Part shown: positions 819 through 28,524 of the stretch, one piece after another
How the letters are laid out: every line of letters starts with the position of its first letter
How positions within the stretch are numbered: position 1 is the stretch's first letter
Assembly: GCA_945897965.1 (NCBI GenBank)
Contig: CAMDHK010000014.1
Coordinates: 1 to 32,825 of the forward strand
Length of the DNA stretch: 32,825 bases
Reading direction: 5' to 3'
Origin: Candidatus Kuenenia stuttgartensis
GTDB lineage: Bacteria; Planctomycetota; Planctomycetia; Gemmatales; Gemmataceae
Program-made: the position numbers and the translations under genes
Notes under the pieces: generated by a model
Told to the model about the DNA's origin: nothing
What the model saw: only the letters and a program-made list of their open reading frames with translations
The model's database searches: none

Positions 819-895
819 CAATACTTTATCACCTACCGCGGTGGCTTTCAATAGCCTTGGCTTTTAATAGCCTTGTACAACGGAGATTCTTTCTG

Positions 896-2212
896 ATGTT
901 TCTTTGTAAGTACTTTCTTTGCGTTTCCAATTTCCGTGCCCTTGTGGTTTTATCTCTATTTGTAATTCTATTTTCTGGATGTTCTAAGCAAGGTCTGGAA
1001 GCTCCTAAAGGTGGTTCCGAAGTCCGTCCTTCCCAAATGAAACTCAAGCGCAAAATTGAGCTCTATAAAATCCAAAAGCAACCTTTTCAAGCTACCTTGG
1101 AAACCGTTGGGCACCTTGAGGCTGAAGGACAGACTGATATTGCCGCAGGTGTTAGCGGTGTCGTTGATGATGTTTTATTTCGTGAAGGCCAATGGGTGGA
1201 TCGTGATACTTTATTGGTCCGGATTGATCAAAAGAGACATAAGGCCAATTATGATTCCGCTCTCGCAATGGAAAAAAAGGCTGAGACTGCATTTGTTTTA
1301 AGTCGTGATCTTGAAGGGTTGACTCGCCTTGCAGGAATTGGAAGTTCGTCAGAAGATCGGGTTCGAGCCGCAGGAAATTCGAAACTTGCAGAAGCAGAAG
1401 CGTTACAATCCAGAGCCGCTAGGCAACTCGCAGAAAATAATTTTAATCGCTCTCAGGTTAAGGCGCCTTATTCGGGGCAAATCAACCAACGCAAGGTTAC
1501 CGTTGGTAGCTATCTTGAAGATAAAACCGTGATCGCAACAATTGCCAACTTAAGTCGAATTCGCCTGGTGGGATATATCCCTGAAAAATCTGCGCCTAGT
1601 TTAAGAGCTTTATTAGATAAAGAAGAGTTTCTTAGGTCTGCATGTTTGATTTCGAACACTTTGATTTCACCTTTTAATGCTCTTACGATTTCCGCAGCAG
1701 ATGCTTCTTCCATGTTGCCTTTTGGTTATGAAATGCGATTTACTCTTCGTGCTTTGCCTCGGGAAAATCTTACTGCCCGATTGTTTTTCATCAGTTCGGT
1801 TGCAAGCCCGGACACCCACATGTTTGAATGTAAGGGAATGATTGATCAATCCGTATTTTCGTCGCAGTTGAGGCCGGGATATACAGCAAAAATCATATGT
1901 GATCTTCCTGGTAAAAAAGATGCCTTAGTGGTTCCTGAGGAAGCTGTTCGCGCTAGTGAAAAAGGGTTTATAATTTTTCAACCAATGCCCAGAGTTACTG
2001 CTGACGGATCCGTTGAGTGGATCGCAAAGCCCAGAACATTGCAACTTGGTTTAAGAAAGCCCGGAGTTGTCGAAGTCTTGGAAGGTGTAGGGGAGGGCGA
2101 TTGGATTGTTCGCAAAGGCGCCGATGCCCTTGAAGAGGGAACTCCCGTAGATGTGCCAAAGGCAATGGAAGAAGAGTTGTTGAAAAAGTTTAAGGAAGCT
2201 AAAAGTAAGTAA
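896..2212 (+). CDS. RND efflux periplasmic adaptor (HlyD/MFP family), probable lipoprotein
   Basis: Signal peptide with lipobox-like LFSGC, biotinyl-lipoyl-like segments (VSGVVDDVLFREGQWVDRDTLLVRID; VKAPYSGQINQRKVTVGSYL). ORF opens at 857; Met at 896 gives a better signal peptide. Confidence 0.9.
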   Translation: MFLCKYFLCVSNFRALVVLSLFVILFSGCSKQGLEAPKGGSEVRPSQMKLKRKIELYKIQKQPFQATLETVGHLEAEGQTDIAAGVSGVVDDVLFREGQWVDRDTLLVRIDQKRHKANYDSALAMEKKAETAFVLSRDLEGLTRLAGIGSSSEDRVRAAGNSKLAEAEALQSRAARQLAENNFNRSQVKAPYSGQINQRKVTVGSYLEDKTVIATIANLSRIRLVGYIPEKSAPSLRALLDKEEFLRSACLISNTLISPFNALTISAADASSMLPFGYEMRFTLRALPRENLTARLFFISSVASPDTHMFECKGMIDQSVFSSQLRPGYTAKIICDLPGKKDALVVPEEAVRASEKGFIIFQPMPRVTADGSVEWIAKPRTLQLGLRKPGVVEVLEGVGEGDWIVRKGADALEEGTPVDVPKAMEEELLKKFKEAKSK

Positions 2213-2233
2213 CCAATACCTGTTTGGTGGATA

Positions 2234-5200
2234 ATGACCCTTTCTGATTTAAGTATTAAAAATCCTGTGTTTGCAGTTATGATCAGTGCCGCACTCGTGG
2301 TTTTTGGTGCTATTGCCTATCGTGGTTTGGGGATCAGCCAATTTCCTGAACTTGATTTTCCGGTTGTTAGTATTAACACCACTAGAGAATCTGCTTCACC
2401 AGAGACAATGGATTATGATGTTACCGATATTATTGAGGATGCTGTTTCAAGCGTTGAAGGCATAGATTACATCCAGTCTCAAAGTTTGCAGGGATCTGCA
2501 GTAACCACGGTGTTTTTTCGGCTTGAAAGAAATATTGATGCAGCGATGCAGGATGTGCAAAATGCTGTTTCTTCTGCTATGAACAGATTGCCCACAGATA
2601 TAGACCCACCTGTTATTTCGAAAGTTAATTTCAATAAGTTTCCGATTATTTGGCTGGGCATTCATGGGCAGAAGCCTCTTCCTGAAATCAATCGCTTTGT
2701 AAATGATATTCTTAAGCAGCAAATTCAAACAATTCCGGGTTGTGGTGGAGTGATGTATGGTGGCTTGCGCCCTAGGAATATGCGCATTTGGATCGATCAG
2801 GAAAAACTAGAGGCCTTTCATATTGATGCATTGGATGTTTTTCGTGCGCTGCAGGCTGAGCATGTCGAGAAACCCGCTGGTTATCTAAAATCAGATAAAC
2901 GAGAAATTAATGTAAGGCTAATGGGCGAAGCGAAGACCCCTAAAGAATTTGCTAGTTTGCCAGTTATTTCAAAACCAGATGGCTCGATTGTTACTTTGGG
3001 TGATGTTGCAATTATTGAAGATGGTATGACCGACCGAAGGTCTTTTGCGAGATTCAATAAGGAAACAACCGTTGGCGTTGGCGTAATGCGAGCAACAGGG
3101 GCTAATGTTGTTCAAGTTTGCGAAGAAGTAAAACGAAGGCTACCAATTTTGCGTGCCCTTGCGCCCGAGGGTGTTGAGATAGGCATATCAACCGATTTCT
3201 CGTTGTTTATCAAAGATGATATCGAGGAAGTTAAACATTCACTTGTCATGGGGGTTGTGCTCACCGCATTAGTTGCGTTGATGTTTTTAGGGTCTATGAG
3301 TTCTACCTTGAATGTTTGTGTATCGATCCCGGTTTCCATCATGGGGACATTTGTTGTCATGAAGTATCTTGGATTTACTTTAAATTTTATGACACTTCTT
3401 GGACTTTCGCTTTCTGTAGGGGTGGTGGTGGATGATGCTATTTTGGTGCTCGAAAACATTTACAGGCGCATGGAGAATGGAGAAACCCGGTTTCAAGCAG
3501 CTTTTAATGGGTCTAATGAGATTTCGTTTGCTGCATTGGCCTCTACACTTTCAATCGTGGCAATTTTTATTCCTGTTGCATTTATGCAGGGCGTAGTCGG
3601 ACAGTTTTTCTTTCAGTTTGGCATTACGGTTACGGTTGCAGTTTTAATTTCTCTGGTTGTTTCGTTGACAATAACACCGATGCTCTCCTCTTTGTTTTTA
3701 AAGCTTCATAAAGAGGTTTTAATCAAACCGCCCACTATGCGGGGGGCGATATCTTTGCCAATTAATCTCTTCAGATACACATGGTGGGGTGCAGACAAAT
3801 ATGTTGTTTATCCCCTTTTGGTTTTTCCTACTCATGTGGTGATGAGTTTTATGGAATTCGTTTACAAGAGGGTTCTTCGATTCGCTGTTGATTATCCGGT
3901 CGTCATTCTTCCCATAGCTTTTAGCTTTGCCTGTTCACTTGGCTTTTTAGTTACAGGCTTGAAAATTCCCCTTCCTCCTTGGCTTAGTGCTAAAATTGGC
4001 ACCCCAGCTATTGTGATCAAGCCCATAGGAACAGAACTCGTTCCTAGCGAGGATCAAAATCGTTTTGTCATTAGTTTGATTTGTCCGGTTGGGGTTAGCA
4101 TTGATTATGTTGAGGAAATGATTGGTAAGTGTGAAAATGTTCTTGTCAATTTGAAAGATCCTGTGACGGGCGCTGAAATTATTGCTGCGATGTTTTCTTC
4201 GATTTCTATTCGACCCGGGATGCTTATTTCTGAAGGGGTTGTTTTTATCAGATTAGTTTCCTCTATGGATCGAACTTTGACTCAGACTCAAATCATTCAA
4301 GATGTTAGGAAAAAGCTTTCGGCTCTTGCGGGAGTTAGGCCAATTGTTTTAGATCTTTCCACTCAGGGTTTTACTCCCACTAGGGGTTTCCCTATCGATT
4401 TTGCAATTCAGGGGCCCGAGTGGAAAACGGTTGTTGAGTATGCCGAAAAAGTTCGTCTTCGCATGATTGAAAGCGGCATGGTTGCTGATGTTAATTCAGA
4501 CTATCGGCCTGGTATGCCTGAGGAACAGCTTTTTCCCGATCGTGATAAAGCAACAGAGATGAATGTACCCATTAAGAAACTTGCATTTCTTTTGAATGTA
4601 GCTTTTGGGGGTGTGCGCAATGGTCGATTTACTGATGAAGATAAACGATATGATGTTCGGATGAGGCTTTTGGAGAATCAGCGTGATACGCCAGATCTTT
4701 TAAGCCAATTGAACATCAGGCAAGAAATTCCTTTATCTGCAGGGGTTAATCCGCCAACAATTCCCATCAATGATATTAGTCAGCATAGAACTGTTTCGAC
4801 CCTGCCGTTGATTAACCGTTATAATCATTTGCGCAAGATAGAAATTACTGCCAACATGAGCCCAGGTGTTTCACAGGGAGAATCCATTGCTCGATGCAAA
4901 CAGATTGCTGAAGATGTTCGGGAAGAAATGGAACTCCCTCCAAGTTATCGTTCTGTTCAATTAGGGAATGCCAAGGCGATGGCGCAAACCATTGATAGCA
5001 TGTGGCGATCACTTGTGTTTGGTTTTTTGGTGGCGTATATGATTCTTGGAATCCAGTTTAATTCTTTTGTTCATCCATTAACTGTTTTGTGGGCAGTGCC
5101 TTTTGGTGTTACGGGCGGACTTCTTGTGCTTTGGCTTTGTGGAGATACGCTCAATCTTATGAGTATGATTGGTTTAGTTCTTCTTGCTGGGTTGGTTAAA

Positions 5201-5587
5201 AAGAATTCGATCATTCTGGTGGATTGTGCGAATCATTTTCGTGAAGCTGGCAAAAATGCCAGAGAATCAATGTTGGAAGCTGGCTTTGTTCGCCTAAGGC
5301 CAATTATGATGACTTCTCTTGCTACCATTGCTGGGGTTGTACCGCTTGCATTTGGCTTTGGTGCTGGTGCTGAAAACAGAGGGCCACTTGCTAGAAGTGT
5401 TATTGGTGGAATTTTTCTTTCTACCTTGATTACGCTCATCGTTGTTCCTTCGTTTTATGTTCTTCTTGAAAAAATAAACCATTGGCTTAACTCATTATCC
5501 AAGGGGGTTAAGGCTTCACCGGTTCTTCCGCCTGCTTCTAATATCAAACAATCTAATCAAGCTGCATTGCAGCCCATCGAGGTTTGA
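2234..5587 (+). CDS. RND efflux permease (AcrB/MdtB family), copy 1
   Basis: SIKNPVFAVM start, GVVVDDAILVLENIYR (TM4 Asp-Asp), GLVKKNSIILVD (TM10 Lys), RLRPIMMTSLATIAG. Confidence 0.96.
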   Translation: MTLSDLSIKNPVFAVMISAALVVFGAIAYRGLGISQFPELDFPVVSINTTRESASPETMDYDVTDIIEDAVSSVEGIDYIQSQSLQGSAVTTVFFRLERNIDAAMQDVQNAVSSAMNRLPTDIDPPVISKVNFNKFPIIWLGIHGQKPLPEINRFVNDILKQQIQTIPGCGGVMYGGLRPRNMRIWIDQEKLEAFHIDALDVFRALQAEHVEKPAGYLKSDKREINVRLMGEAKTPKEFASLPVISKPDGSIVTLGDVAIIEDGMTDRRSFARFNKETTVGVGVMRATGANVVQVCEEVKRRLPILRALAPEGVEIGISTDFSLFIKDDIEEVKHSLVMGVVLTALVALMFLGSMSSTLNVCVSIPVSIMGTFVVMKYLGFTLNFMTLLGLSLSVGVVVDDAILVLENIYRRMENGETRFQAAFNGSNEISFAALASTLSIVAIFIPVAFMQGVVGQFFFQFGITVTVAVLISLVVSLTITPMLSSLFLKLHKEVLIKPPTMRGAISLPINLFRYTWWGADKYVVYPLLVFPTHVVMSFMEFVYKRVLRFAVDYPVVILPIAFSFACSLGFLVTGLKIPLPPWLSAKIGTPAIVIKPIGTELVPSEDQNRFVISLICPVGVSIDYVEEMIGKCENVLVNLKDPVTGAEIIAAMFSSISIRPGMLISEGVVFIRLVSSMDRTLTQTQIIQDVRKKLSALAGVRPIVLDLSTQGFTPTRGFPIDFAIQGPEWKTVVEYAEKVRLRMIESGMVADVNSDYRPGMPEEQLFPDRDKATEMNVPIKKLAFLLNVAFGGVRNGRFTDEDKRYDVRMRLLENQRDTPDLLSQLNIRQEIPLSAGVNPPTIPINDISQHRTVSTLPLINRYNHLRKIEITANMSPGVSQGESIARCKQIAEDVREEMELPPSYRSVQLGNAKAMAQTIDSMWRSLVFGFLVAYMILGIQFNSFVHPLTVLWAVPFGVTGGLLVLWLCGDTLNLMSMIGLVLLAGLVKKNSIILVDCANHFREAGKNARESMLEAGFVRLRPIMMTSLATIAGVVPLAFGFGAGAENRGPLARSVIGGIFLSTLITLIVVPSFYVLLEKINHWLNSLSKGVKASPVLPPASNIKQSNQAALQPIEV

Positions 5588-5594
5588 AAACACT

Positions 5595-8500
5595 ATGAGT
5601 TTGCCTGCTTTAAGTATTCGAAACCCTGTGTTTGCTGTCATGGTTTCTGCTGCGATGATCATTTTCGGATGGCTCGGCTATCAAGGCTTGGGGGTTAGTC
5701 AGTTTCCTGAAATTGATTTTCCCGTTGTTAGCATTGCGGTTACTAGAGAAGCAGCTTCGCCCGATATCATGGATGGGGATATTACTGATGTTGTTGAAGA
5801 CGCAGTGGCTAGTGTGGAGGGTGTTGACTATATCATGTCCCGCAGCATGGAGGGCATCAGCCTTGTCACCGTTTATTTCAGGCTTGAAAGAAATATTGAT
5901 GTTGCAATGCAAGATGTTCAAAATGCGGTGAGTGCTGCTAGGCGAAGGTTGCCTGTCGATATAGATCCCCCAGTGATAACCAAAGTTAACCCTAATAATC
6001 TTCCTGTGATGTGGCTGACATTATCTGGGAGCGCCCCGCTGCATCGAATCAGTGATTTTGCGGAGAAAGAGCTCAAGCAAGAAATTGCTGCAATTGCCGA
6101 AGTTGGTGGTGTTCAATTTGCGGGTTTACAGGCACGATCCATCCGAATCTGGGTTGATCGAGATAAGCTTACAAGTTTCAATCTTGCTGCAGATGATGTC
6201 AGGCAGGCAATTCTGAAACAACATGCTGAAATGCCTGCGGGGTATATTCAAAGCAAAATGGTGGAGTTTAATCTTCGAACCATGGGCGAAGCTTATTCTG
6301 TAAATGAATTTCGAAAGCTTTTGGTTACGCAAAGAGATGGGCAGCATATTCTTCTTGAAGATCTTGCGGTGGTTGAAGATGGAATGGAAGACCGAAGAAG
6401 CTTGGCTAGATTTAATCGCATGCCTGCAATTGCTGTTGGAATTCGAAAAGCAATTGGCGGAAATTTGGTGGGCTTGTGTGAGAATGTAAAGAAGGAGTTG
6501 CCTCGGTTGCGAAAAATGTTACCTCCTGGTGTTGAGCTTAATGTGCCTGTCGATTCCTCGGTTTTTGTAAAGGAAAACATAGATGAATTAAAACTAACCC
6601 TAATGCTTGGTGTGCTATTTACAGGAGTTGTTTGTTATTTGTTTCTTGGATCGATTGGCACAACGGTGAATATTTGTCTTTCCATTCCAACATCCTTAAT
6701 CGGAACATTTTTCTTCATCAATTACGGGGTGAAGTTTTTTGGTTGGCCTCCCTTTACCATCAATTTGATGACACTTCTTGGCCTTTCTCTTTCTGTTGGT
6801 GTTGTTGTTGATGATGCAATCTTGGTGCTTGAAAATATTTACAGACTTAGGGAAAAAGGTTTGTCAATGATCGATGCTGCTTTACAGGGAGCAAACGAAA
6901 TTAGCTTTGCTGCCATTGCCTCCACCTTTTCCATTGCTGCGATTTTTCTTCCCGTTGCCTTCATGTCGGGAACCATAGGTAGATTTTTCTTTCAGTTTGG
7001 CGTCACAGTTAGTGTGGCTGTCATTCTATCGCTCGTGTGTGCTTTAACCCTCACCCCCATGCTTAGTGCTTTTTTTCTCAAGCTTGCTCATGAGGAAGAA
7101 AAGGCCCCGCGCCCAATTCATATCGTCCTTGTTTTGTTGATTAGTTTGATGATTCAAATCCCTTTGATGATTTTAAAACTTTTTGCAGCGACCGGTTCCA
7201 TGCTCGAATCTTATTGCTGGCCCGTCAAGTTCTTCTTTAAATACCTAGGTAATTCCTTGCCCATGTTTCTTGACCCTTTTCAGTTTCTTTCTGGAAAACA
7301 AGCATGGATGGCTTTTTCCTTAGAAGTTGTTCTCGAGGTTTTGGTTATTGTTTTGTTTGTACGCTATTTTAAATTGGGGCTCTGGGCTGTTCAATTTTAT
7401 ATTTTAAAGCCATTGTTTTTGACCCCTACAGACTGGGCTTTGAATCTTACAACATCTGCTTATTCCAGGTTGTTGGGGTACTCACTTAAACATACTAATC
7501 TTGTTCTTGTCTTGGGGGTTTTCATAGCCTTGGCAACTGGCCTTTTTTTGGGAATTGGAATATTAGGTCAGGAACTTGTTCCTAGCGAAGACCAGAGCAG
7601 ATTACTAGTTCATGTGGTTGCCCCGGTTGGTGCTAGCATTGATGAAATTGGAAATTTGCTTGGCCGCTGTGAAACTATTCTTTCTGATCGGGATGAAGTG
7701 GCGGGAATTATGACTGCAGTTGCAACCGAATCGGGCTTATTGATGAATGAAGCTGATATTTTTGTTCAGCTTGTTCCCCGATCTGACCGCTCGCTGACAC
7801 AGCAGCAACTTGGCCCTTTAATCCGAAAAGAACTCATGCAAGTTGAAGATGTACGGGTTGTGGTTCGAGATCAATCGACCGAAGGTTTTACGCCTCAGCG
7901 CGGTGACCCGATTGATTTTTCCATTCAAGGGGATTGGAAAATTCTACCCGATGTCGGCCGTAAAATTATTGATTCGATGAATTACTCTTTGACCAAAAAT
8001 AATCTACCTTTGCTTACCGATATAGATATGGATTATAGGCCCGGTATGCCTGAAGTTCAGGTTACTCCAGATCGCGAAAAACTTGCATTATTGGGCATGC
8101 CTGTTTCCCGCCTTGCTGAAAGTATCAGCCTTCTTGTTGGGGGCGAACGCGTTGGAAGATTTACCGATAAGGGCAGGCGTTATGATGTCCGGGTCCGGTT
8201 CCAAGAACAAGAACGAACCTCGCCTGAAAATCTTCTTCTTATGACTCTCAGAGCAGGCGATAACAAGCTTGTTACTGTTGAGGATGTCGTGCAAGAACTC
8301 AAAACTGTTTCAACTCTTCCTGTCATTAATCGTTACAACCATCAACGTAAAATCGAGATTACTGCCAACACTTCTGAAGGTGTTTCTCAAGGCGAAGCAA
8401 TTGCTAAATGTAAAGAACTTGCAACTGGTCTGCTTCCTGAAAATGTAACTTTAGTTGAATTAGGTAATGCGAGTGCGCTTAAAGAAACAATGACAAGCCT

Positions 8501-9029
8501 TATGTTTGCTTTGATGTTGGGTATTGTTATTGCATACATGATTTTAGGAATTCAATTTAATTCATTTATCCATCCATTTACCGTTATTCTTGCAATGCCT
8601 TTTGCGGTCACTGGCGCATTGATCACACTTTGGCTGACAGGTGATACATTAAATATGATGAGTATGATTGGATTTATTCTTCTCATGGGTTTGGTAAAAA
8701 AGAATTCAATTATTCTTGTTGATTACACCAATCAATTAAGAGAGCAGGGGATGGGCGTAGAAGAAGCCTTGGTTAATGCCTGCCCTGTTCGATTGAGGCC
8801 TATTCTTATGACATCGATCGCAACAATTGCGGGTGCAATTCCTGCAGCTTTTGGTGTCGGGCCTGGGGCCGAAACCAGGGCACCCATGGCGCGTGCTATT
8901 ATTGGTGGTATTTTGTTTTCGACTGTTGTAACTTTGTTTCTTGTTCCTGCTTTTTATCTTTTTGCTGAACGATGGCGCAGCTTCGCCAGCTTTCTCGCAA
9001 GGGTTGAGGATGGCCCCAATCCAAAATAA
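5595..9029 (+). CDS. RND efflux permease (AcrB/MdtB family), copy 2, with extended TM6-TM7 insertion
   Basis: SIRNPVFAVM, GVVVDDAILVLENIYR, GLVKKNSIILVDYTN, RLRPILMTSIATIAG; 7-bp gap from copy 1. Confidence 0.96.
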   Translation: MSLPALSIRNPVFAVMVSAAMIIFGWLGYQGLGVSQFPEIDFPVVSIAVTREAASPDIMDGDITDVVEDAVASVEGVDYIMSRSMEGISLVTVYFRLERNIDVAMQDVQNAVSAARRRLPVDIDPPVITKVNPNNLPVMWLTLSGSAPLHRISDFAEKELKQEIAAIAEVGGVQFAGLQARSIRIWVDRDKLTSFNLAADDVRQAILKQHAEMPAGYIQSKMVEFNLRTMGEAYSVNEFRKLLVTQRDGQHILLEDLAVVEDGMEDRRSLARFNRMPAIAVGIRKAIGGNLVGLCENVKKELPRLRKMLPPGVELNVPVDSSVFVKENIDELKLTLMLGVLFTGVVCYLFLGSIGTTVNICLSIPTSLIGTFFFINYGVKFFGWPPFTINLMTLLGLSLSVGVVVDDAILVLENIYRLREKGLSMIDAALQGANEISFAAIASTFSIAAIFLPVAFMSGTIGRFFFQFGVTVSVAVILSLVCALTLTPMLSAFFLKLAHEEEKAPRPIHIVLVLLISLMIQIPLMILKLFAATGSMLESYCWPVKFFFKYLGNSLPMFLDPFQFLSGKQAWMAFSLEVVLEVLVIVLFVRYFKLGLWAVQFYILKPLFLTPTDWALNLTTSAYSRLLGYSLKHTNLVLVLGVFIALATGLFLGIGILGQELVPSEDQSRLLVHVVAPVGASIDEIGNLLGRCETILSDRDEVAGIMTAVATESGLLMNEADIFVQLVPRSDRSLTQQQLGPLIRKELMQVEDVRVVVRDQSTEGFTPQRGDPIDFSIQGDWKILPDVGRKIIDSMNYSLTKNNLPLLTDIDMDYRPGMPEVQVTPDREKLALLGMPVSRLAESISLLVGGERVGRFTDKGRRYDVRVRFQEQERTSPENLLLMTLRAGDNKLVTVEDVVQELKTVSTLPVINRYNHQRKIEITANTSEGVSQGEAIAKCKELATGLLPENVTLVELGNASALKETMTSLMFALMLGIVIAYMILGIQFNSFIHPFTVILAMPFAVTGALITLWLTGDTLNMMSMIGFILLMGLVKKNSIILVDYTNQLREQGMGVEEALVNACPVRLRPILMTSIATIAGAIPAAFGVGPGAETRAPMARAIIGGILFSTVVTLFLVPAFYLFAERWRSFASFLARVEDGPNPK

Positions 9030-9049
9030 TTCTTACGAGCATTTTTTTC

Positions 9050-10432
9050 ATGGATGAAATAAATTTGGTAACGATTACATTTCATGAAGGAACTCTTGTA
9101 GTTAATGGTTTATCTCAGGATTTAACTCAAAACCTTCCTTTTCTTTTGCCCGATCCAAGAACCAAAAATTTCCGGTGTGAGGCCATATATTACAGGGCCC
9201 TCATTCAAGGTTTGGTTTCACTTAAAATTGTTTTTAAAGATTCAGCTAAGCTTTACCAAAATCAGGAATGGGTGACCAAAGATGTTCGTCAGCCGTTTCC
9301 TTATCAATTAGAAGCTCTTGAATCTTGGTGGAGCAAAAAATCACGAGGGGTTGTTGTTTTGCCCACCGGCACAGGTAAAACATTCCTTGCAGTTTTAGCT
9401 ATAATTCGTATGCAGCGCCCCACTTTGGTTGTGACTCCTACTATCGATTTGATGAATCAGTGGCATTCAGTTCTTTCCACTTCATTAGGGGTGCCTGTTG
9501 GGATGATGGGAGGTGGGACCCACGAAGTTCATGACATCACCGTTACCACTTATGATTCCGCGCATATTCATTTGGCAAAGTGGGGCAATAAATTCGGCTT
9601 TTTAGTTTTTGATGAATGTCATCATTTGCCTGGTTCGGTTTATTCAAATATCGCAATTGGTTCTATTGCGCCATTCCGTTTGGGCCTTACAGCAACCCCC
9701 GAAAGAACCGATGGCAACGAAACAATGCTTGAGCATTTGATAGGTCCCTTTGTTTTTCGAAAAGAAATTGGAGAACTCGCAGGTAGTTATTTGGCTAGTT
9801 ATGAATCAGAAATCATTCATGTAGACCTTTCCCCTGATGAAAAAATTGATTACGAAAATGCAAGAAAGTTGTATCGTGATTACCTTATAAAAAGAGGGAT
9901 CAGCCTTAGAGATCCTAGTGGTTGGCAGCGGTTTCTTGCGGAAAGTTCACGCTTTCAAGAAGCGAAAAAAGCCTACGATGCTTTCAGGTTGCAAAAGAAA
10001 ATAGCGTTGCATTCAAAAGCAAAAATTGATGTCTTAGAAAACCTTCTTCTTAAGCATGCGAATGATCCCTGTATTATTTTTGCTGGCGATAACACGATGG
10101 TTTATGCGATCTCTAGGAGGTTCCTCATCCCTGCTGTTACGCATGAAACCAAGGCTAAAGAGCGAAAGCAAACCTTGGATAAATTTAAGTCTGGGGAATA
10201 TCTTGCGGTCGTTACCAACAAGGTTCTTAATGAAGGGGTTGATGTTCCTAGTGCTGGCGTTGGCATTGTGCTTTCAGGTTCCGGAACTGTGCGTGAGCAT
10301 GTTCAGCGATTGGGCAGAATCTTACGTAAGTACAAAGATAAACGCGCCATTCTTTACGAAGTAATTAGCAGGAACACCAGTGAAGAATTAACCAGCAAAA
10401 GGCGTAGGGAGCATGATGCTTACAGGAAATAA
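9050..10432 (+). CDS. XPB/Ssl2-like superfamily 2 DNA helicase
   Basis: VVLPTGTGKT (motif I), FDECHHLP (motif II), LGLTATPERTDG (motif III region), EGVDVPSAGVGIVLSGSGTVREHVQRLGRILR (motifs V-VI). Confidence 0.88.
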   Translation: MDEINLVTITFHEGTLVVNGLSQDLTQNLPFLLPDPRTKNFRCEAIYYRALIQGLVSLKIVFKDSAKLYQNQEWVTKDVRQPFPYQLEALESWWSKKSRGVVVLPTGTGKTFLAVLAIIRMQRPTLVVTPTIDLMNQWHSVLSTSLGVPVGMMGGGTHEVHDITVTTYDSAHIHLAKWGNKFGFLVFDECHHLPGSVYSNIAIGSIAPFRLGLTATPERTDGNETMLEHLIGPFVFRKEIGELAGSYLASYESEIIHVDLSPDEKIDYENARKLYRDYLIKRGISLRDPSGWQRFLAESSRFQEAKKAYDAFRLQKKIALHSKAKIDVLENLLLKHANDPCIIFAGDNTMVYAISRRFLIPAVTHETKAKERKQTLDKFKSGEYLAVVTNKVLNEGVDVPSAGVGIVLSGSGTVREHVQRLGRILRKYKDKRAILYEVISRNTSEELTSKRRREHDAYRK

Positions 10433-11624
10433 ATTGCTTGCGAAAAACTACAGGGGGAGACTTCTGGTCAGTTACCTTGACCCTTCCGATTCTAGATGGG
10501 GTACGGTTGTAGAATGGATTTTATCCAAGGGCAAGGATCTTTTGGGGCAATCAAGAAGTGTATTTGAAGAGGAAATAAATGAGTATCCCGGTTCAGTTCC
10601 TGATGCTTTGGTGTTTGCAGGGTTGGTTAAAGTTTTTTCGGACAATTGTACTTTTGAACAATCTACAGAATTTGATGCGATAAAAATCAGGGAACTTGTT
10701 TTCTCATTAGCTTCAAATTTCAAGCAGGAAGGAAAGTTATCTTCCGATATCGAAGTTCGTAAAAATATTTTTGAACTTGTAGGGAAACAAACTGAAGTTG
10801 ATCCAAATCTCATCGATGCTTTGTTGTACTCCGATCTTGAATCAGAAAATAAACTTTTAGCTATACCCAAGGTTAATGCCCAAAATTTAATGCATCGGTA
10901 TAATCTTTCGCTTGCCCAAGGGGCATTGCTTAACTCGTTGAATATTGTTGTAAAATTACCTTCATCGACTCCCCCAGCAAGGTTAAGGCAGTTAACACGA
11001 TGGCTTAAGTTTCAGCGATTGTTGTGCGCAGTTGATAAAAATAAATCAGAGGGTTTGACCCTGCAGATTGATGGGCCATTAAGCCTTTTCCGAACAACCC
11101 AGAAATATGGTTTTCAAATAGCCTTGTTTCTGCCTGCTCTTTTATTGTGCCCAGAATTTGAATTGGAAGCTGAATTGCTCTGGGGCAAAACTAAGAAGCC
11201 CTGCAAATTCCAAATTACCAGCAATGATGGTTTGGTTACCCATTACGCAGATTCTGGCATGTACCGGCCACCGGAAAACGATGCGTTTCTTCTTTTGTTT
11301 AAAAAAAGAATCGATGAATGGGATATATCGGACACTATATCCGACCTTGATTATTCTGACGATTTACTAATCCCAGATTTTGTTCTTAAGAGGAAAACAG
11401 ATCAAAAAATTGTTGGCCTAGAAATTCTTTGGAATTGGAACACTGTCATGGTTGAACGAAGAATCAAAGACATGGAAAAGCTTAAACTTCAAAAGTATGT
11501 ACTTGCCGTAGCTGATAAAGGTAATTTGGGAAAAGACAAATTAGCACAAATACCTAAGTCAGTTTATTTGTTTAAATCCTCGCCATTGCCTCAGGAAATC
11601 GAGAAAATAATTAACGCGTTTTGA
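10413..11624 (+). CDS. DUF790/Bax1-like nuclease, partner of XPB
   Basis: Starts inside the 3' end of the XPB-like gene (20-bp overlap); N-term MLTGNKLLAKNYRGRLLVSYLDPSD; C-term PD-(D/E)xK-like IPDFVLKRKTDQKIVGLEILWNWN. Confidence 0.78.
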   Translation: MMLTGNKLLAKNYRGRLLVSYLDPSDSRWGTVVEWILSKGKDLLGQSRSVFEEEINEYPGSVPDALVFAGLVKVFSDNCTFEQSTEFDAIKIRELVFSLASNFKQEGKLSSDIEVRKNIFELVGKQTEVDPNLIDALLYSDLESENKLLAIPKVNAQNLMHRYNLSLAQGALLNSLNIVVKLPSSTPPARLRQLTRWLKFQRLLCAVDKNKSEGLTLQIDGPLSLFRTTQKYGFQIALFLPALLLCPEFELEAELLWGKTKKPCKFQITSNDGLVTHYADSGMYRPPENDAFLLLFKKRIDEWDISDTISDLDYSDDLLIPDFVLKRKTDQKIVGLEILWNWNTVMVERRIKDMEKLKLQKYVLAVADKGNLGKDKLAQIPKSVYLFKSSPLPQEIEKIINAF

Positions 11625-20747: not shown

Positions 20748-23003
20748 TTACCTTTTGAAGGTCGAACCAGATTGGCGAATCTTGTTACCAGATTCACTTG
20801 ACCCAGAAGTTAGTTGAATAATCGCCTGATCAGCTTCCATTCGAACTCTAGGGTCCAAGTCCGTTTTCTTTTCATTAATTACTTCCAACACTTCTATAGT
20901 ATTGATTTTCATGCGTGTAAGCGAGCGTATACATGCTGCTCTTACCAATGGGGCTGGATCTTCCTTGACTGCCGTTGCTAAGGCCTGAACTGCCAGGTTC
21001 ATGGATGCCCCTCGGATTTTGGATAGTTGATCCGCAGCATACTCCCTTTGGGAAGGTTGATTTGCATTTTTTAGCATCACAACGTTCTCCATTAAAACAG
21101 TATCTGCAGGCATTACGGTGGATTCAGGTTGAATGTAAGCCATCATGTTGGCTGGCATTTGCCCTGACGTCATGCCTTGAGCCATAGCATTATCAGGATT
21201 AATTCCTTGGGGGCTAAATCCTTGGGCAGGCATACCGCCTTCGTTTGGCATTGCTGGATTAAATGCGTTTTGCATTACAACGGTTGATGCAACATCCGAA
21301 GGGATCGGCCTCTGATTTGGGACCGAGGTAAAGGCGTTTGCCATGCCTTGGGTCGGATAATTATTACCAGCCATTCTCGTAGTTGGGTAGCTGGGAAAAA
21401 GTTGCGGTGCTTGGGGTGGAATAATATTGTGTGCGATAGATGGTGCTGCAACAAGGGGTTGTCCATTGGGGTTATAAGGAATCAATCTGACAGGTGGGGC
21501 CCCTGCAGCTATAACCGACCCGTTACCTGGAGGGAGTTTTTCTTCATTTGCGTTAACTTCTTTAGGCTTGTCCAAGAAACCATAAATGCGCCCCATGGTG
21601 CGACCAAGGAAATCTGGTGTCTTAGTCTCGGTAGGTTCTTTCTTTTTGGAAAGAACTATTCTTGGTTGCCTAGGTTCTTTGATAACAATGATTGGCAGTG
21701 GGGCCGTTGTTTCTACGGTTTCTGTCCTAATTTTCGTACTAGCATTAGCTTTAGCAACTGGAACAGATTTAGGTTTTTCCTTAGGCGTTACTTTAATAGT
21801 TTCTGTTGGAGTAGTCTTGGGAGTCGATTTTTCCGCTAGTTCCGCAGTTGTTTTTGGAAAGTTTCCACCAGAAACAATCGCTTCCACTTCTTGGTTTGCG
21901 CTTTCTCTTCCCACAGCTTTTACAGCTTTCTTTGCTATTTTTTCTTCTAGCTTGGGATGTAGATAATCAATGCTTTTCAGTGGATCAGGTTTAGTCCGAT
22001 CTGCATGGGGAAGTTCATGCTCCACTGGTTGGTTTTTAGTAATGTTGGTTTTTTCCTGGGATGAATCCATTTTGCCCCAAGATTTTCGCCAATCCTGAGC
22101 TTTGGGTTGTTCAAACTCAGGCTTTTTTGTTTCTTTTGGCCCAGTGGGTTCTGCAACTCTAGATTCACTTTTAGTTACAACGGAATTCACAGTGGTAGGT
22201 GTTGTATTTTGATTACTTGAGTTCGAAGAATCGATTCCTTTATCTTTTACCTTGGCAACTAAAGGCGCTTTGTAAGGGATTTCTGTGATCGATATGACTT
22301 TTTCAGGCCCAGCACTGGTGGTAGCGACAAGGCTTTTTTCTTCATGGAGAATAATGAGTTTGTCTGTATTGGATGGTGCAGTTTTAGTAGTGAATAATTT
22401 CTTGTTTTTCTCTGGTACAACCACGACTTTATCAGCGCCTGGTGCTGGAATGGTTATGTATTCAGTAGCCAAGGGTTTTTCGGTTGAAGTAGCAACTTCT
22501 GATGTCGCTATTTCTTTTTTAATGGTTGCTGTTTCAATTTTTAATGGTTTTGTGTCTTTTTGAATCGCAGTTTGCATAGGTACAACGGTTGAGTTATTGA
22601 TAGCCGTTGTCGCCTCAACTTTGGGTAGTTCTTTTTGCAAAGTTTTTGCTATTGAAGAGTTATATTCAGGAGGAATAGGGCAATTCGCTGGCGGGGTATT
22701 GGAATTCACCCAGTGGTAGTTAGTCGTTGAATTTTTTTCTTTTGAATTTGGGTCGTTTTGAACGATGGTAATTTTCTTACCAGTTTCAAGAGCTTCTACT
22801 AAATAGCATTGTTGCCCGGTTTTATTTGTCCAAACTAAGATTAGCCTGCACTTTATTGGAGCATTGCCTTTTTCATTTACAGTTAAAAACCTGTCTTTCG
22901 GTTTTTGTATATCATTATTGCTCGGGGTTTCAGAATATGCCAATCCAATGGTTGTTCCAGTAAGTGCTAAAAACAGGGAGCTTAGCCATAATTTGCGTAA
23001 CAT
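20748..23003 (-). CDS. secreted/anchored low-complexity (T/K/P-rich) protein with C-terminal HEAT-like repeats
   Basis: Signal-like MLRKLWLSSLFLALTGTTIGLAYS; long T/K/E/P-rich region; C-term helical repeats AADQLSKIRG..ALATAVKEDPAPLVRAACIRSLTRM..DPRVRMEADQAIIQL. ORF opens at 23021. Confidence 0.72.
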   Translation of the reverse strand: MLRKLWLSSLFLALTGTTIGLAYSETPSNNDIQKPKDRFLTVNEKGNAPIKCRLILVWTNKTGQQCYLVEALETGKKITIVQNDPNSKEKNSTTNYHWVNSNTPPANCPIPPEYNSSIAKTLQKELPKVEATTAINNSTVVPMQTAIQKDTKPLKIETATIKKEIATSEVATSTEKPLATEYITIPAPGADKVVVVPEKNKKLFTTKTAPSNTDKLIILHEEKSLVATTSAGPEKVISITEIPYKAPLVAKVKDKGIDSSNSSNQNTTPTTVNSVVTKSESRVAEPTGPKETKKPEFEQPKAQDWRKSWGKMDSSQEKTNITKNQPVEHELPHADRTKPDPLKSIDYLHPKLEEKIAKKAVKAVGRESANQEVEAIVSGGNFPKTTAELAEKSTPKTTPTETIKVTPKEKPKSVPVAKANASTKIRTETVETTAPLPIIVIKEPRQPRIVLSKKKEPTETKTPDFLGRTMGRIYGFLDKPKEVNANEEKLPPGNGSVIAAGAPPVRLIPYNPNGQPLVAAPSIAHNIIPPQAPQLFPSYPTTRMAGNNYPTQGMANAFTSVPNQRPIPSDVASTVVMQNAFNPAMPNEGGMPAQGFSPQGINPDNAMAQGMTSGQMPANMMAYIQPESTVMPADTVLMENVVMLKNANQPSQREYAADQLSKIRGASMNLAVQALATAVKEDPAPLVRAACIRSLTRMKINTIEVLEVINEKKTDLDPRVRMEADQAIIQLTSGSSESGNKIRQSGSTFKR

Positions 23004-23142
23004 GATCGAATCCCCCGGCATAAGGTTAAATCTATGCCAATAAATGTTTAATATACTGTTTTATTTATCGGTAATGCAGGGTATGAGCTTGAAAGCGAAT
23101 TTGACGAAAAGTCGGAATATTCAGTCGGGTGGGTAAAATAGC

Positions 23143-23175
23143 CAAGGGCCTGTTGGAAAAACCAACAGGCCCTTG
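23143..23175 (-). terminator. intrinsic-terminator-like hairpin after the toroid gene
   Basis: CAAGGGCCTGTTGG / AAAAA / CCAACAGGCCCTTG, perfect 14-bp stem, about 25 bp after the 23200 stop; modest T-rich tract (TATTTT) follows on the minus strand. Confidence 0.75.
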
Positions 23176-23199
23176 ATGATTTAGGTAGACAGGGCTAAA

Positions 23200-25020
23200 T
23201 TACTTCGCTCCGCCCATCTCGCGGCGGTACAAAGGCAAATGCCTATAATAGACTTCCATGGTAAGAAGAGCCATGGATGTAGCCATCAGCCTACCACCAG
23301 CATCGGCGTGAGCGCCAAGAGCATCCCAGCTACCGGAGAGCATGATTTTTTTAGGATCTGTTCCCTGAACCTGCTTGGCAATTAAAATATCACGAACGCC
23401 ATTTTTACGAACCCCAGCAACTTCAGGGCCTAGGTTCCAGAAATCCCAAGCTTCTCCACCCATGTGGTGCATAACCTGAGTTGCGTAGTAAATTTGGTAC
23501 ATGTTGTAATTTGCAGGGCTAACGCCTGGGTGAATCTTTTTCATGATTTCCACGCCTTTTAAAAGGCCGGGATTTCTTGGGTTAACACCCATGTATTGTC
23601 TGCAAAGCATACCGATAGCGGTCATTGCAGGAGCAGCTCCTGGATCTGTGTAGCCATAACCACCAGATTTTGGATCGTGCACACCATCAAGATATTTTTC
23701 AACCATTTTGTATCGTTCGGTTGGGACTTTGAGGCCAGCCATTTGGCCACTCTTTAATGCCATGGTGCACCAACCGGTTACCGAGGTGTCGCCTGGTTGT
23801 TTAGGGCCATAGCGCCAGCCACCACCATCATGCTGGGCATAAATTAAATAATCTAAAGCTCTTTGGGCAGAGATTTTGATCAAGGGATCACTTGTCATAC
23901 CATAAGCTTCGCACATAGCAATTGTTGCCAATGGGTGAGAATAAAGATCACCTCCATAATTGCCATCTTTACCTTGTTTTTTAATAAGGAAGTTGACACC
24001 ACCCATAACGGTTTTGCTGTAATCTTCCTGAGCTTTTTTGCCCGAGGGTTTATGGGTGATACCTGCAGCAAGGAAAGGTAATAAACCAAAACCAGTGCCT
24101 GCAATATCGTCATTTTTGGCTTTATCAGTAGTGTTATGCTTAATTATTTTGGAAGCAGGATTTCCGATAGGGGCACTTCGGTAATGATCACCATATTTAT
24201 TAAGTGACCAATGGCCATCGTCAGCTTGGTGCAAAGCAAAAAATTTAAGGCCTCGAGCAACAGCCGCTTCGGAAAGCGCATTGCCACCGCCTTCTGCAAG
24301 AAGTTTGTCGCGAGTCGAACCACTACGACCAGCAATACCACCAGGGGCATACACCCCGCCCATGCCGCCAAGGGAACCAACATTACTTCCAAGGCCTGAA
24401 ACATCTAGAGAGGGAGCAGCACCAGTACCGCCACCAAAACCCGGAGGGGGTGGAACATTTGCAGCAACCGTTTCAGGTGAATTTGGAATGCCAACAGATT
24501 GCGATGGATCTTCTGGGCCGGGAACACTCATCTCGTCTTTGCGATCCACATTGTATTGCGTGGGCACTTCGATATCGTTGCCCACATCGGTAACAGTTAG
24601 ATCTGGTTCTGGTTCAGATTCTTCAATTTTGGTAGGTTCATCGAGTTTGGCAGCTTGAACGGGGCCATTTTCGAACGGAACAAGCATAATTAAGAGGATC
24701 AGCAAACCGTGCATAGCGGCGCTTATAACCCCAGCACCCAATGCCCAAATAATATTTGCATAGCCAGTATTATCTTGAAGTGTTTCGGAAAGCTCAACAT
24801 GGCCAGCTTCGTGGCCGATTCCTGCGAAAACCGCCAAGCCCATGGCGGGTTTGGTGGCAGCAATAACAGGTACAGCGCCTTCGAGAAGTACCGAAGTAAC
24901 TTCTATACCCCTATCGCGGGCGATCATCTCAGCGTTTTTTTCACTTTGAGCAACAATCTTAGATTCAATGGGCTTGCCTGTCCCCTTGATTGTGCCTTTA
25001 ACAATGTAGTTTTGTGACAT
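23200..25020 (-). CDS. membrane-anchored prenyltransferase/squalene-cyclase-like toroid protein with TonB-like TM and linker
   Basis: TM IIWALGAGVISAAMHGLLILLIMLVPF; acidic/Pro linker DEPTKIEESEPEPD; Gly-rich linker; QW-like repeats HQADDGHWSL, KQGKDGNYGG, AQHDGGGWRYG. Confidence 0.85.
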   Translation of the reverse strand: MSQNYIVKGTIKGTGKPIESKIVAQSEKNAEMIARDRGIEVTSVLLEGAVPVIAATKPAMGLAVFAGIGHEAGHVELSETLQDNTGYANIIWALGAGVISAAMHGLLILLIMLVPFENGPVQAAKLDEPTKIEESEPEPDLTVTDVGNDIEVPTQYNVDRKDEMSVPGPEDPSQSVGIPNSPETVAANVPPPPGFGGGTGAAPSLDVSGLGSNVGSLGGMGGVYAPGGIAGRSGSTRDKLLAEGGGNALSEAAVARGLKFFALHQADDGHWSLNKYGDHYRSAPIGNPASKIIKHNTTDKAKNDDIAGTGFGLLPFLAAGITHKPSGKKAQEDYSKTVMGGVNFLIKKQGKDGNYGGDLYSHPLATIAMCEAYGMTSDPLIKISAQRALDYLIYAQHDGGGWRYGPKQPGDTSVTGWCTMALKSGQMAGLKVPTERYKMVEKYLDGVHDPKSGGYGYTDPGAAPAMTAIGMLCRQYMGVNPRNPGLLKGVEIMKKIHPGVSPANYNMYQIYYATQVMHHMGGEAWDFWNLGPEVAGVRKNGVRDILIAKQVQGTDPKKIMLSGSWDALGAHADAGGRLMATSMALLTMEVYYRHLPLYRREMGGAK

Positions 25021-25080
25021 GAATAATTCTCCTAAACTTTATTGATACTTTATTATTGCATGAATGCTTTGGGAAATCAA

Positions 25081-26283
25081 TCAAATCCTATAGCCGGGAA
25101 ACTTTGAATTTCCAGAATCGTTTTCTGGTAATTTAGACGCAGAAATGTCAATTTGGTTCCCAATAGTGGTCGAATAATCTTTGAAAATAGGGTCGACTTC
25201 TAATCTTCGGTTTCTTAACCGGTTTGAAGTCTTCTGATCGCCACGCAAAAACCAGATAATTAACCCAATAATTCCTGTAAGGACAATCAAGGATGATACG
25301 GTAAATAAAGGCAGTAACCCTTTCGCCCAAGTTGAACCTTCTTCAGAAGATGCGAACGAACCCCTTGTGACATTCAAAGTTTTTCCAATCACTAAAGGTG
25401 TATCTTTCCAAGGGTTTTCGCTACCACTATTTGCTGTTTTGTAGCGATATTTTTTGAAAAAGTAGCCTTGAAATTCGATCAAAAAATCGTCTTTTTCAAA
25501 AGGTTGGATGTTGTCAGGCAATTGAGTAAATAGGATACAAACTGGGTTAGGCCCATACATCTCTTGAAAGACCCAGCCTTCGTAAAGTTCGGAAACGCCA
25601 ACACTTAGTAATGCAACAGGTGGCGTAATTTTTCTGAGGCGCCTTAGCCTTCCTTTGATTTCCACAACCTCGCCTCGATTTGTCCTGGGTTTGGTCATAA
25701 GATCGGAGAAAGTAAGGTCTTTACGGGCGGATTGCGCAAAGGCCAAAGCAGAAGTTTGATGAGCCATTAGCACGAATTCGTAATAAGCAGAGGCCTCTAA
25801 ATCATCAATCGAAGGGCCGGAAATTGGTTTTTCGTCTTTTACCCGTTCCAAAAATTCATCTGGAATCGGTCGAACAACATCTGAATTAATCAAAGACCAA
25901 AAATCTTCTTCGTCACCGATTTTCAAAAACCCAATTGTTTCAATTCCAGAACTTGCAGACCCCGCGGGCATAAGAATTAAACCACAAGTTGCAAGAAGGG
26001 TTTTGTCTCGTCTTGAAGAAAAAGGCGCAGCAAAAGACCATAAATTAAAACCTGCATCATCCCCACTAACTAGCGTAGAAAGCGAGCCTAAAAGCCCAAT
26101 CCCTGGCATGGTTCCCGAGCCAATACAAAGGGTTGCTAAATAGCTCTGCTCGGGTTGAAATAATTGAAATAAAGGAACTGTATCGATATCTTGCGAGGTC
26201 GCTTTTTGCCTTGGAAATAAGCAAGCTAGAAATAAAAAAACAAGGACGATGAATTTGCAAATGGTGTTGGTTTTAGACATCAT
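25081..26283 (-). CDS. uncharacterised envelope protein, N-terminal signal and C-terminal TM
   Basis: N-term FIVLVFLFLACLFPRQKATSQ; C-term LLPLFTVSSLIVLTGIIGLIIWFLRG; possible OB-like stretch (EVVEIKGRLRRL...FLIEFQGYFFKKYRYK). Confidence 0.7.
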   Translation of the reverse strand: MMSKTNTICKFIVLVFLFLACLFPRQKATSQDIDTVPLFQLFQPEQSYLATLCIGSGTMPGIGLLGSLSTLVSGDDAGFNLWSFAAPFSSRRDKTLLATCGLILMPAGSASSGIETIGFLKIGDEEDFWSLINSDVVRPIPDEFLERVKDEKPISGPSIDDLEASAYYEFVLMAHQTSALAFAQSARKDLTFSDLMTKPRTNRGEVVEIKGRLRRLRKITPPVALLSVGVSELYEGWVFQEMYGPNPVCILFTQLPDNIQPFEKDDFLIEFQGYFFKKYRYKTANSGSENPWKDTPLVIGKTLNVTRGSFASSEEGSTWAKGLLPLFTVSSLIVLTGIIGLIIWFLRGDQKTSNRLRNRRLEVDPIFKDYSTTIGNQIDISASKLPENDSGNSKFPGYRI

Positions 26284-26298
26284 TCGTGTCCGGAAAAA

Positions 26299-26820
26299 TT
26301 AATTAACCACACTGATGTTGAATCCCGGAGGTTCAACAAAACTGACATTTTTAAAACCAGCTTTACGGCAAGTATCTGCAACCATGATCACATTGGACCA
26401 TTTTAACTTGCTTGCAGGCTGAATTTTAATTACCTCTTTTTCAGTGGCAGTCTCATTGGCTATTTTGAGTTTTTCAAACAGCTCTTTGAGATCTCCTACA
26501 ATGACCGAACCAGAATTTTGCTTGATATGTATTTTTGCTATTTCACCCCGATTGATATCATCGGTGACGGCTTCCACAACAATTGTTACATCAGCTTCTA
26601 TTTTTGGAGGAGCATCGGGATCGGGTGGCGGCGGCGGTTGTTTGGTTTCCTTGGCAGCAGCTTCATTTTCTGAAGGCAAGCTTAAATCAAACTGACCCTC
26701 CAGCCCGGAAGGATTGTATGTGAAAATGAAAAAAGTCAGCAATTGAAAAGCCATGTCCAACATGGGCGTGATGGGCAATATGACTTCTGGTGCTGGTTCT
26801 TCGTTCCTGTGCTTACTCAT
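26299..26820 (-). CDS. ExbD/TolR-family protein, copy 2
   Basis: [24 protein letters not shown]: conserved TM Asp motif. Confidence 0.88.
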
Positions 26821-27344
26821 ATTGGTTGTGCCACGCTCTTAGTTACAGCCCGGAGTTTTATTTGCCTAAATCCCTCAATTTTGCACATTTGCAGGACACG
26901 GTAAACTTGATCATAGTCAGTAAGCTTATGGGCTCGCATGACAATGGTAGTTTTAACTTTACCATCTTTGCTGGTTCTTTTAAGGGTGTTAAACTGGTTT
27001 CGAAGCCAGAACTTAAATTCGCTGAATCTCATGGGCTCTTCGCCAAGGATAATAATAAAAGGGTCGCCTTCTTTAAACTTATCGGTAAGTTTTTGAAGGG
27101 CGGTAGCACCTTTAGATTCATAATCCTTTAAAATAAAAGGTCGAACATTAACGAATAAAACATCGGTTTCATTCTTGTCCATGGGCACAGCAGACATTGA
27201 TTCTGGCAATACGATTTCTTCTGATACCTGATTGGTTACAAAATTAACGCACATCATGAAAAACATTAGAAGCTGCAACACCACATCCAAAAGAGGAGTG
27301 AGGTTCGGTTCCATGTTTCCTTCGCCGGAAGCACCATGACTCAT
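26817..27344 (-). CDS. ExbD/TolR-family protein, copy 1
   Basis: [22 protein letters not shown]; 4-bp ATGA overlap with the downstream ExbD. Confidence 0.88.
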
Positions 27345-27444
27345 GGTATTTTAACCCCTCGTTGACTTCTATTTCAGTCTTTAACTGGTCCCTTTTAACG
27401 ATCATTGTGCTGATCTCTCTTACAAACAGAGAGACCATCAGAGA

Positions 27445-28293
27445 TTAAACTTGGGGCACGGACTTTGTTGGAACGTTTGGAGTCGCTGGAGTTGCAGGCG
27501 CACCAGGTTGACCCGCTGCTTTTTTAGTACTGTGATACATTTGGGTTAAAAGATCATCAGCGATCAAGCTAGTATCCATCGAAATTTTAATTAATCGATT
27601 ACGATAAAAGGCATGAAAGAAAATAGCAGGAACGGATAGGCCAATCCCGAGCAGTGTAACTACAAGTGCATGCGAAATACCATCTGCAAGTTTATCTGGC
27701 CTTGGGGTGGAACCGGGTCTGCCAAGTTCCATAAAGCTAAGAATCATACCAAATACTGTTCCAACCAAACCAATAAGGGGCCCAAGAGTCCCAATAGTTG
27801 AAAGATAAGTGATTGCTACTTCCTTGCTGGCTTTGATGCTATCAACCATGTTATATGCTGATTCTCTAGCATCTTCGATGCCATATTGAAGCCTAGACAT
27901 ACCCTGACTCATGACTCTACCAAGAAAAGACCCATCTTCTTTGGCTATATCGAAGGCTTGTTTGAACTGCTTCTTATTGACCAAGTCGGTGAATTCTTCA
28001 ACAAAATTTGGGGGAATGGATGTAGCCATTCGAAGTTCCATTGCTAAGAGGCAAACAAGCGCAATAAGTGCAATTGAAATAGCGAGAATCATTGGGCCGA
28101 ACACCCAACCAGCAGATTTAAGAATATGCATGAAAAGGCTAGGATTTCCAGCAGCAGCAGGTTTATCGCCTTCATCTTTCTTTTCTGCAGCAGGAGGCGC
28201 TGCATCTTGAAAGGCGTAGGAACTATTGGTGCTGAATAAAAACCCAACAAGAACCAGCAAAACAAGTGTAAACCTTGACAATGTCCCTGACAT
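27445..28293 (-). CDS. MotA/TolQ/ExbB-family proton channel protein with N-terminal signal-like segment
   Basis: AITYLSTIGTLGPLIGLVGTVFGMILSFMELG, LADGISHALVVTLLGIGLSVPAIFFHAFYRNRL. AAGGGG about 6 nt before ATG at 28293 supports this start over 28353. Confidence 0.92.
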   Translation of the reverse strand: MSGTLSRFTLVLLVLVGFLFSTNSSYAFQDAAPPAAEKKDEGDKPAAAGNPSLFMHILKSAGWVFGPMILAISIALIALVCLLAMELRMATSIPPNFVEEFTDLVNKKQFKQAFDIAKEDGSFLGRVMSQGMSRLQYGIEDARESAYNMVDSIKASKEVAITYLSTIGTLGPLIGLVGTVFGMILSFMELGRPGSTPRPDKLADGISHALVVTLLGIGLSVPAIFFHAFYRNRLIKISMDTSLIADDLLTQMYHSTKKAAGQPGAPATPATPNVPTKSVPQV

Positions 28294-28524
28294 GAAATAC
28301 CCCTTAATTAGCGTTAGCATCTTGTCAATCCTTTTGAAAACTCCAAAAGTCACTTTATGAAAGTTTATTTGGAAGAAGAAAGCAAAATTTCATTAAACTT
28401 TCATTCTGTTATTCTTTTGACACACAGTAGCAAACATTAGTTCCATTAGAATCAAAAACATTAAAATTAAATTAACTTCCTTTATAACAACGATGAAATC
28501 GTGTGCTGTCAAGGAATTATCGCA

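Follow-up and report, generated by a model that had tools for sequence, protein, structure and literature searches.

What does an ExbB–ExbD–ExbD motor drive at a locus that encodes no TonB? The question is raised by the 32,825-nucleotide stretch analyzed here (hereafter the window), which is contig C14 of a 4.39-Mb planctomycete genome that is 86.5% complete. On its minus strand, from 28293 to 23200, genes for ExbB, two ExbDs, a 400-residue protein (p400) and a protein with an alpha/alpha toroid domain (the toroid protein) are arranged in this order and followed by a hairpin. Our analysis indicates that the toroid protein is probably a motor-coupled arm of the ExbB–ExbD–ExbD complex, similar to TonB/TolA but new in its C-terminal domain. 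An initial annotation of this DNA had proposed that the ExbBDD motor drives the toroid arm; a Ser-His motif in the transmembrane (TM) helix of the arm and the linkage of its gene to motor genes support the proposal, and from them we infer force transmission.

The TonB-like organization put forward in the initial annotation, a TM segment, an acidic/proline linker and then a presumably extracytoplasmic domain, was recovered as three parts in an AlphaFold2 (AF2) model, and the acidic/proline segment is present. The model was built with alignment A1, which comprises 41 toroids that are 31–95% identical to that of the window. The toroid gene and its parts, with confidence given as predicted local distance difference test (pLDDT) values, are as follows.

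23200–25020, minus strand: toroid protein, the proposed motor-coupled transducer; 606 amino acids (aa), AF2 pLDDT 75.7, 326 residues at 90 or above
24871–25020, minus strand: residues 1–50, a small beta-beta-alpha-beta domain, predicted cytoplasmic; AF2 block with pLDDT 85–97
24682–24765, minus strand: TM helix, residues 86–113; AF2 helix and hydropathy
24709–24723, minus strand: S100-A-A-M-H104, corresponding to Ser-x3-His in the SHLS motif of TonB/TolA; alignment A1
24322–24672, minus strand: disordered acidic/proline/glycine linker, residues 117–233 (~117 residues); AF2 pLDDT below 50
23248–24321, minus strand: alpha/alpha toroid domain, residues 234–591; AF2, Foldseek probability 1.00

Column counts place a weakly conserved L141-D145-G147 stretch within the linker. 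The likeness to TonB drawn in the initial annotation concerned the layout; the TM motif adds to it. The TM helix reads GAGVISAAMHGLLILLIMLV and contains S100-x3-H104, the E. coli counterparts of which lie in LLSVCIHG of TonB and IISAVLHV of TolA. In alignment A1, Ser occupies position 100 in 39/39 sequences, and just two residues occur at position 104, His (31 of 40) and Asn (9 of 40); every other column of the helix is more variable. The pattern Sxxx[HN] was detected in 133/146 toroids, within the N-terminal TM, but in 7/111 control open reading frames (ORFs) with a single TM from the same loci (Fisher p~1e-47). Toroids of 700–850 aa (two TM) or 1100–1230 aa (three TM) carry the motif in the last TM before the linker in nearly all cases. 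By cryo-electron microscopy, TonB Ser16/His20 touch ExbB Ser34/Trp38 and TolA Ser18/His22 touch TolQ Ser28/Trp32, contacts that are linked to a TM3 proline (PMC12215075). Judged from sequence, the Ser-His pair supports the view that the toroid protein would bind the motor. The alternation between His and Asn only at position 104 fits the report that Asn can replace TonB His20 with full function, as given in the title of Swayne & Postle 2011 (cited in PMC8928145). Two of the seven motif-bearing controls lie upstream of one toroid gene (locus L158, 3540–5531 and 5694–7634); their TM segments read SFGVH and SFLVH, a clear motif, they have no toroid-profile match, and they may represent different head domains joined to a shared motor-binding anchor.

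The linkage to motor genes recurs well beyond the window. The same order and strand, ExbB–ExbD–ExbD–p400–toroid, are found across the host's family, and a GTDB scan detected them in Gemmataceae- and Pirellulales-type metagenome-assembled genomes (MAGs) as well. The toroid of the closest relative, an uncultured Planctomycetaceae MAG, is 97% identical, and a Gemmataceae MAG represents the next genus. In other families, it is the two-TM and three-TM toroids that directly follow ExbB/ExbD. Upstream sequence was sufficient for 111 non-redundant toroids, and for 42 of these a same-strand Exb gene lies no more than 6 kb upstream; at 5.3 ExbB-family genes per genome, ~0.3 would be expected by chance. 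Linked toroids occupy several places in the toroid-domain tree, with 11 changes, at least 8 of them forced by well-supported (starred) branches. Recurrence of the linkage across architectures exceeds chance, and the conserved co-occurrence with ExbB/ExbD that the initial annotation had called for was observed far beyond that level and in several separate parts of the tree.

The motor genes and the other elements of the cluster were as follows.

27445–28293, minus strand: ExbB/TolQ-type proton-channel subunit, 282 aa; Pfam MotA_ExbB, E=2.3e-22; phmmer against the PDB returns TolQ/ExbB
26817–27344, minus strand: ExbD1, 175 aa; Pfam ExbD, E=2.3e-16; TM aspartate in NLTPLLD, aligned to NVTPFID of E. 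coli ExbD
26299–26820, minus strand: ExbD2, 173 aa; Pfam ExbD, E=2.2e-14; TM aspartate in PITPMLD; proline-rich insert
25081–26283, minus strand: p400, 400 aa; a hydrophobic segment at the N-terminus, then an extracytoplasmic part, and at the C-terminus a TM helix with a basic tail
23142–23176, minus strand: terminator-like hairpin closing the cluster; perfect 15-bp stem, 5-nt loop, −28.6 kcal/mol, z=−6.4

The motor subunits had been annotated as an ExbB at 28293–27445 and two ExbDs whose reading frames overlap by ATGA, and a strong hairpin had been described at the end; all five ORFs of the cluster lie where they had been placed, on the minus strand, Pfam agrees with the assignment of the motor subunits, and the stem length and z score bear out the hairpin. 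Alternative in-frame starts of ExbB are possible upstream, at 28353 (GTG) or 28320 (ATG). ExbB has both the MotA_ExbB domain and the pore threonines, and the TM aspartate typical of ExbD/TolR was found in both ExbDs (TPLLD in ExbD1, TPMLD in ExbD2). Because ortholog differences are mostly synonymous in ExbB, ExbD1, ExbD2 and the toroid, these four are real genes; p400 diverges faster. A promoter scan returned no more sites than in shuffles. On another contig of the same genome (C114, locus L181), 7723–10124 holds a second, different ExbB-like operon, in which a 448-aa MotA/ExbB-type protein is followed by an N-terminal-TM protein without Ser-x3-His.

To examine the ExbB side of the contact, 37 toroid-linked ExbBs were compared using E. 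coli ExbB numbering. Ser34 (34/37), Thr148 (36/37), Thr181 (34/37) and Pro190 (32/37) are kept, all four also in the ExbB of the window and its genus, where Trp38 is Ile and Glu176 is His. Several observations weigh against a TonB-like arm. Trp38, which belongs to the known contact network, has given way to Val, Ile or Leu in 35 of these 37 ExbBs, and His usually takes the place of Glu176; since Ser34 is kept but Trp38 is replaced, the ExbB–toroid contact is probably alike, not identical, to that of TonB. The remainder of SHLS, Leu-x3-Ser, is missing: the window has Ile at position 111 and Pro at position 115, and both positions vary in A1; in TonB, these are the less conserved residues of the motif (PMC12215075). 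The linkage and motif rows are related by descent, so their counts are not independent events, and a binomial estimate for the linkage overstates independence. Finally, 69/111 toroids lack a nearby Exb gene but retain the motif, which in them would have to work in trans or have another role. That unlinked toroids keep Ser-His suggests that motors may be shared in trans, and tonB itself is seldom beside exbBD (PMC12204202). The term "operon" in the initial annotation is not a general rule, because linkage is absent for most toroids of the phylum.

The domain itself had been described as a squalene-cyclase-like toroid, and Foldseek agrees on the alpha/alpha toroid fold, with matches to squalene-hopene cyclase, type II terpene cyclases, GH76, sugar epimerases and complement domains (probability 1.00, 10–15% identity). 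Because these matches span many enzyme and binding classes at such identity, the fold by itself names no function. Pfam gave only weak, sub-cutoff squalene-hopene-cyclase matches (E~8e-4). A terpene cyclase function was rejected, as the DxDD motif occurs in only 3/146 toroid domains, and a complement-type thioester role was rejected with CGEQ in 0/146; many aromatic and acidic positions of the domain are nevertheless invariant. These results bear on the alternative that the toroid protein is an anchored terpene-cyclase-like or glycan-active enzyme that merely shares the operon, its Ser-x3-His being an inherited quirk without motor contact. Such an enzyme would account for the weak Pfam/NCBIfam squalene/hopene cyclase matches, for the Foldseek cyclases and GH76, and for homologs that share the motif regardless of Exb linkage. 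We nevertheless consider it quite unlikely, given the counts for DxDD and CGEQ, a TM helix in which only the Ser and His/Asn columns are fixed while their neighbors vary, and a linkage that recurs with different architectures.

The toroid is predicted to lie outside the cytoplasm. Mean net charge across 133 homologs is +0.5 before the TM helix versus −4.3 after it, and N-termini resembling twin-arginine export signals occur on two toroid paralogs of this genome; together with the AF2 model, these features predict an N-in/C-out protein. The initial annotation had regarded a cytoplasmic toroid as contrary to its proposal, and the charge bias, the one confident TM helix and the export-like paralogs point outside instead. 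Hydropathy had hinted at a second TM at residues 50–75, both in the window and in one relative, but this was rejected: AF2 is disordered there and has one confident TM helix, and the orthologs of two further genomes (G001 and G034) show one peak.

The unknown envelope protein that had been placed between ExbD2 and the toroid corresponds to the p400 ORF at 26283–25081, which has no Pfam match. Its AF2 model (pLDDT 71) predicts an OB-like beta-barrel at residues 206–305 and a C-terminal TM helix; Foldseek returned weak matches to SSB/OB folds, none below E 1e-3, and the family alignment (A2) shows WFRRGD in the basic tail of its homologs. p400 adjoins the toroid in 34/146 non-redundant loci, and the two-TM and three-TM toroid clusters have no p400 with ExbB/ExbD still present. 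p400 is probably an accessory subunit. One could instead assign the force to p400 or to a protein encoded elsewhere, and view the toroid as an anchored periplasmic enzyme or binding protein that serves as scaffold or regulator within ExbBDD. The position of p400 between ExbD2 and the toroid, its conservation with them, the prevalence of enzymes and binding domains among alpha/alpha toroids and the many invariant polar and aromatic columns of the toroid are in keeping with this view. However, p400 lacks the TonB-like order, its confident TM being C-terminal, it is missing from the two-TM and three-TM clusters that carry ExbB/ExbD, and the Ser-His motif sits in the toroid; we therefore regard this view as unlikely.

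Is the toroid protein then TonB itself under another guise? As the initial annotation stated, the window contains no TonB or TonB-dependent receptor, and profiles were negative in the whole genome (86.5% complete) and six same-genus genomes for both the TonB_C domain (PF03544), which was not found in the toroid either, and the receptor barrel, with TolA outside the profile search. Among 59 relatives, TonB_C was not found in 49 (39/46 of good quality) and the receptor barrel was not found in 39. If the toroid protein were an ortholog of TonB or TolA whose C-terminal domain had diverged, the shared three-part layout and TM motif would fit, but the domain has an all-alpha toroid fold in place of the small alpha/beta fold of TonB/TolA, it has no TonB_C match, and true TonB_C proteins coexist with toroids in some relatives. 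Orthology is thus highly improbable, although shared ancestry of the TM segment alone would be compatible with these data.

We propose a working model in which the toroid protein would serve as the force-transducing arm of a motor driven by proton motive force and formed by ExbB, ExbD and ExbD. Its single TM helix would use Ser100/His104 to dock against the outer face of the ExbB pentamer, in the way that TonB uses Ser16/His20 and TolA uses Ser18/His22. The flexible linker of ~117 residues would span part of the periplasm, the alpha/alpha toroid would be the working end, and p400, with its periplasmic OB-like domain and C-terminal TM, would join as an accessory subunit. The data give the gene content, the conserved linkage, the Ser-His motif, the fold and the predicted topology; ExbB binding, coupling to proton flow and delivery of force by the toroid are the steps we infer. 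A glycan or a peptidoglycan/envelope protein, held in the conserved aromatic/acidic face, is a tentative and rather doubtful candidate for the target.

The toroid was found in 59/59 relatives, and the A1 profile has matches in 115/119 phylum genomes, often in ten or more places, a count that includes soluble and weakly related toroids; the toroid class is therefore widespread, with ExbBD linkage in a minority. It is conceivable, if somewhat short of an even chance, that throughout the phylum multi-copy toroid-headed arms draw work from ExbBD motors beside or instead of TonB/TolA, many arms sharing few motors in trans and the heads being proton-driven glycan- or envelope-handling devices. If true, the toroid arm widens the range of machines known for the ExbBD/TolQR motor. 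Most genomes sampled have no recognizable TonB, and the two diagnostic residues (Ser and His) make the question of how planctomycetes power their unusual outer envelope directly testable by mutation.

Several loci carry tandem pairs of toroid-TM genes, some near-identical and others diverged, most without an Exb gene nearby (L048, 7790–11405; L044, 8576–11953; L092, 922–4199; further pairs in L069, L071, L120, L139, L143, L145, L153, L155, L163, L167 and L175). A Gemmataceae-like p400–toroid pair on a contig titled Bacteroidales (L128, JAIXLE010000232.1) matches a genome of the host's family (G025), and the title looks mislabeled.

Directly 3' of the toroid cluster, 20748–23021 (minus strand) encodes a 757-aa protein that starts with a signal-like segment, continues through a long region rich in Thr, Lys and Pro and ends in HEAT repeats; besides the host genus, two other genera have this gene in the same position. 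On the plus strand, 857–9029 encodes an HlyD-type membrane fusion protein and then two consecutive AcrB-type RND pumps (1117 and 1144 aa), possibly a two-pump efflux unit. At 9050–11624 (plus strand), an XPB/ERCC3-type helicase gene (PF16203, XPB_DRD) overlaps a DUF790 gene, resembling an archaeal-type repair pair in a planctomycete; we take DUF790 to be the Bax1 nuclease, the partner of XPB in archaea.

Compared with known systems, the toroid cluster resembles TonB–ExbB–ExbD in its 5:2-type motor genes, the Ser-x3-His of the arm TM and the long Pro/acidic linker. It differs in having two different ExbDs, a toroid domain in place of TonB_C, an extra cytoplasmic N-terminal domain and p400, and in a host genome and genus where no TonB-dependent receptor was found. 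With TolA–TolQ–TolR it shares the adjacency of tolQ-like, tolR-like and arm genes and the TM Ser-His, but its arm ends in a toroid, and no tolB, pal or cpoB was recognized among the neighboring genes. With squalene-hopene and type II terpene cyclases, GH76 mannanases and the complement thioester domain it shares the fold at ~10–15% identity, without the DxDD and CGEQ motifs. In a literature search on ExbB/ExbD with squalene, prenyltransferase or "squalene oxidase repeat" in planctomycetes, with subscription papers and preprints outside its scope, the toroid system was not found described. It shares its logic with the von Willebrand factor A (vWA) force transducers of the PVC group, which are reported in Planctomycetes (PMC12204202, Mol Biol Evol 2025) in a text that does not mention toroid, squalene, cyclase or prenyltransferase. 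A Pfam scan found no vWA domain in the toroid, and the vWA proteins of this genome and close relatives have no SHLS-type TM where the full frame was recovered, several frames being cut short. The vWA transducers carry a vWA head with a TPR gene alongside, whereas the system described here carries an alpha/alpha toroid head with the OB-like p400 alongside.

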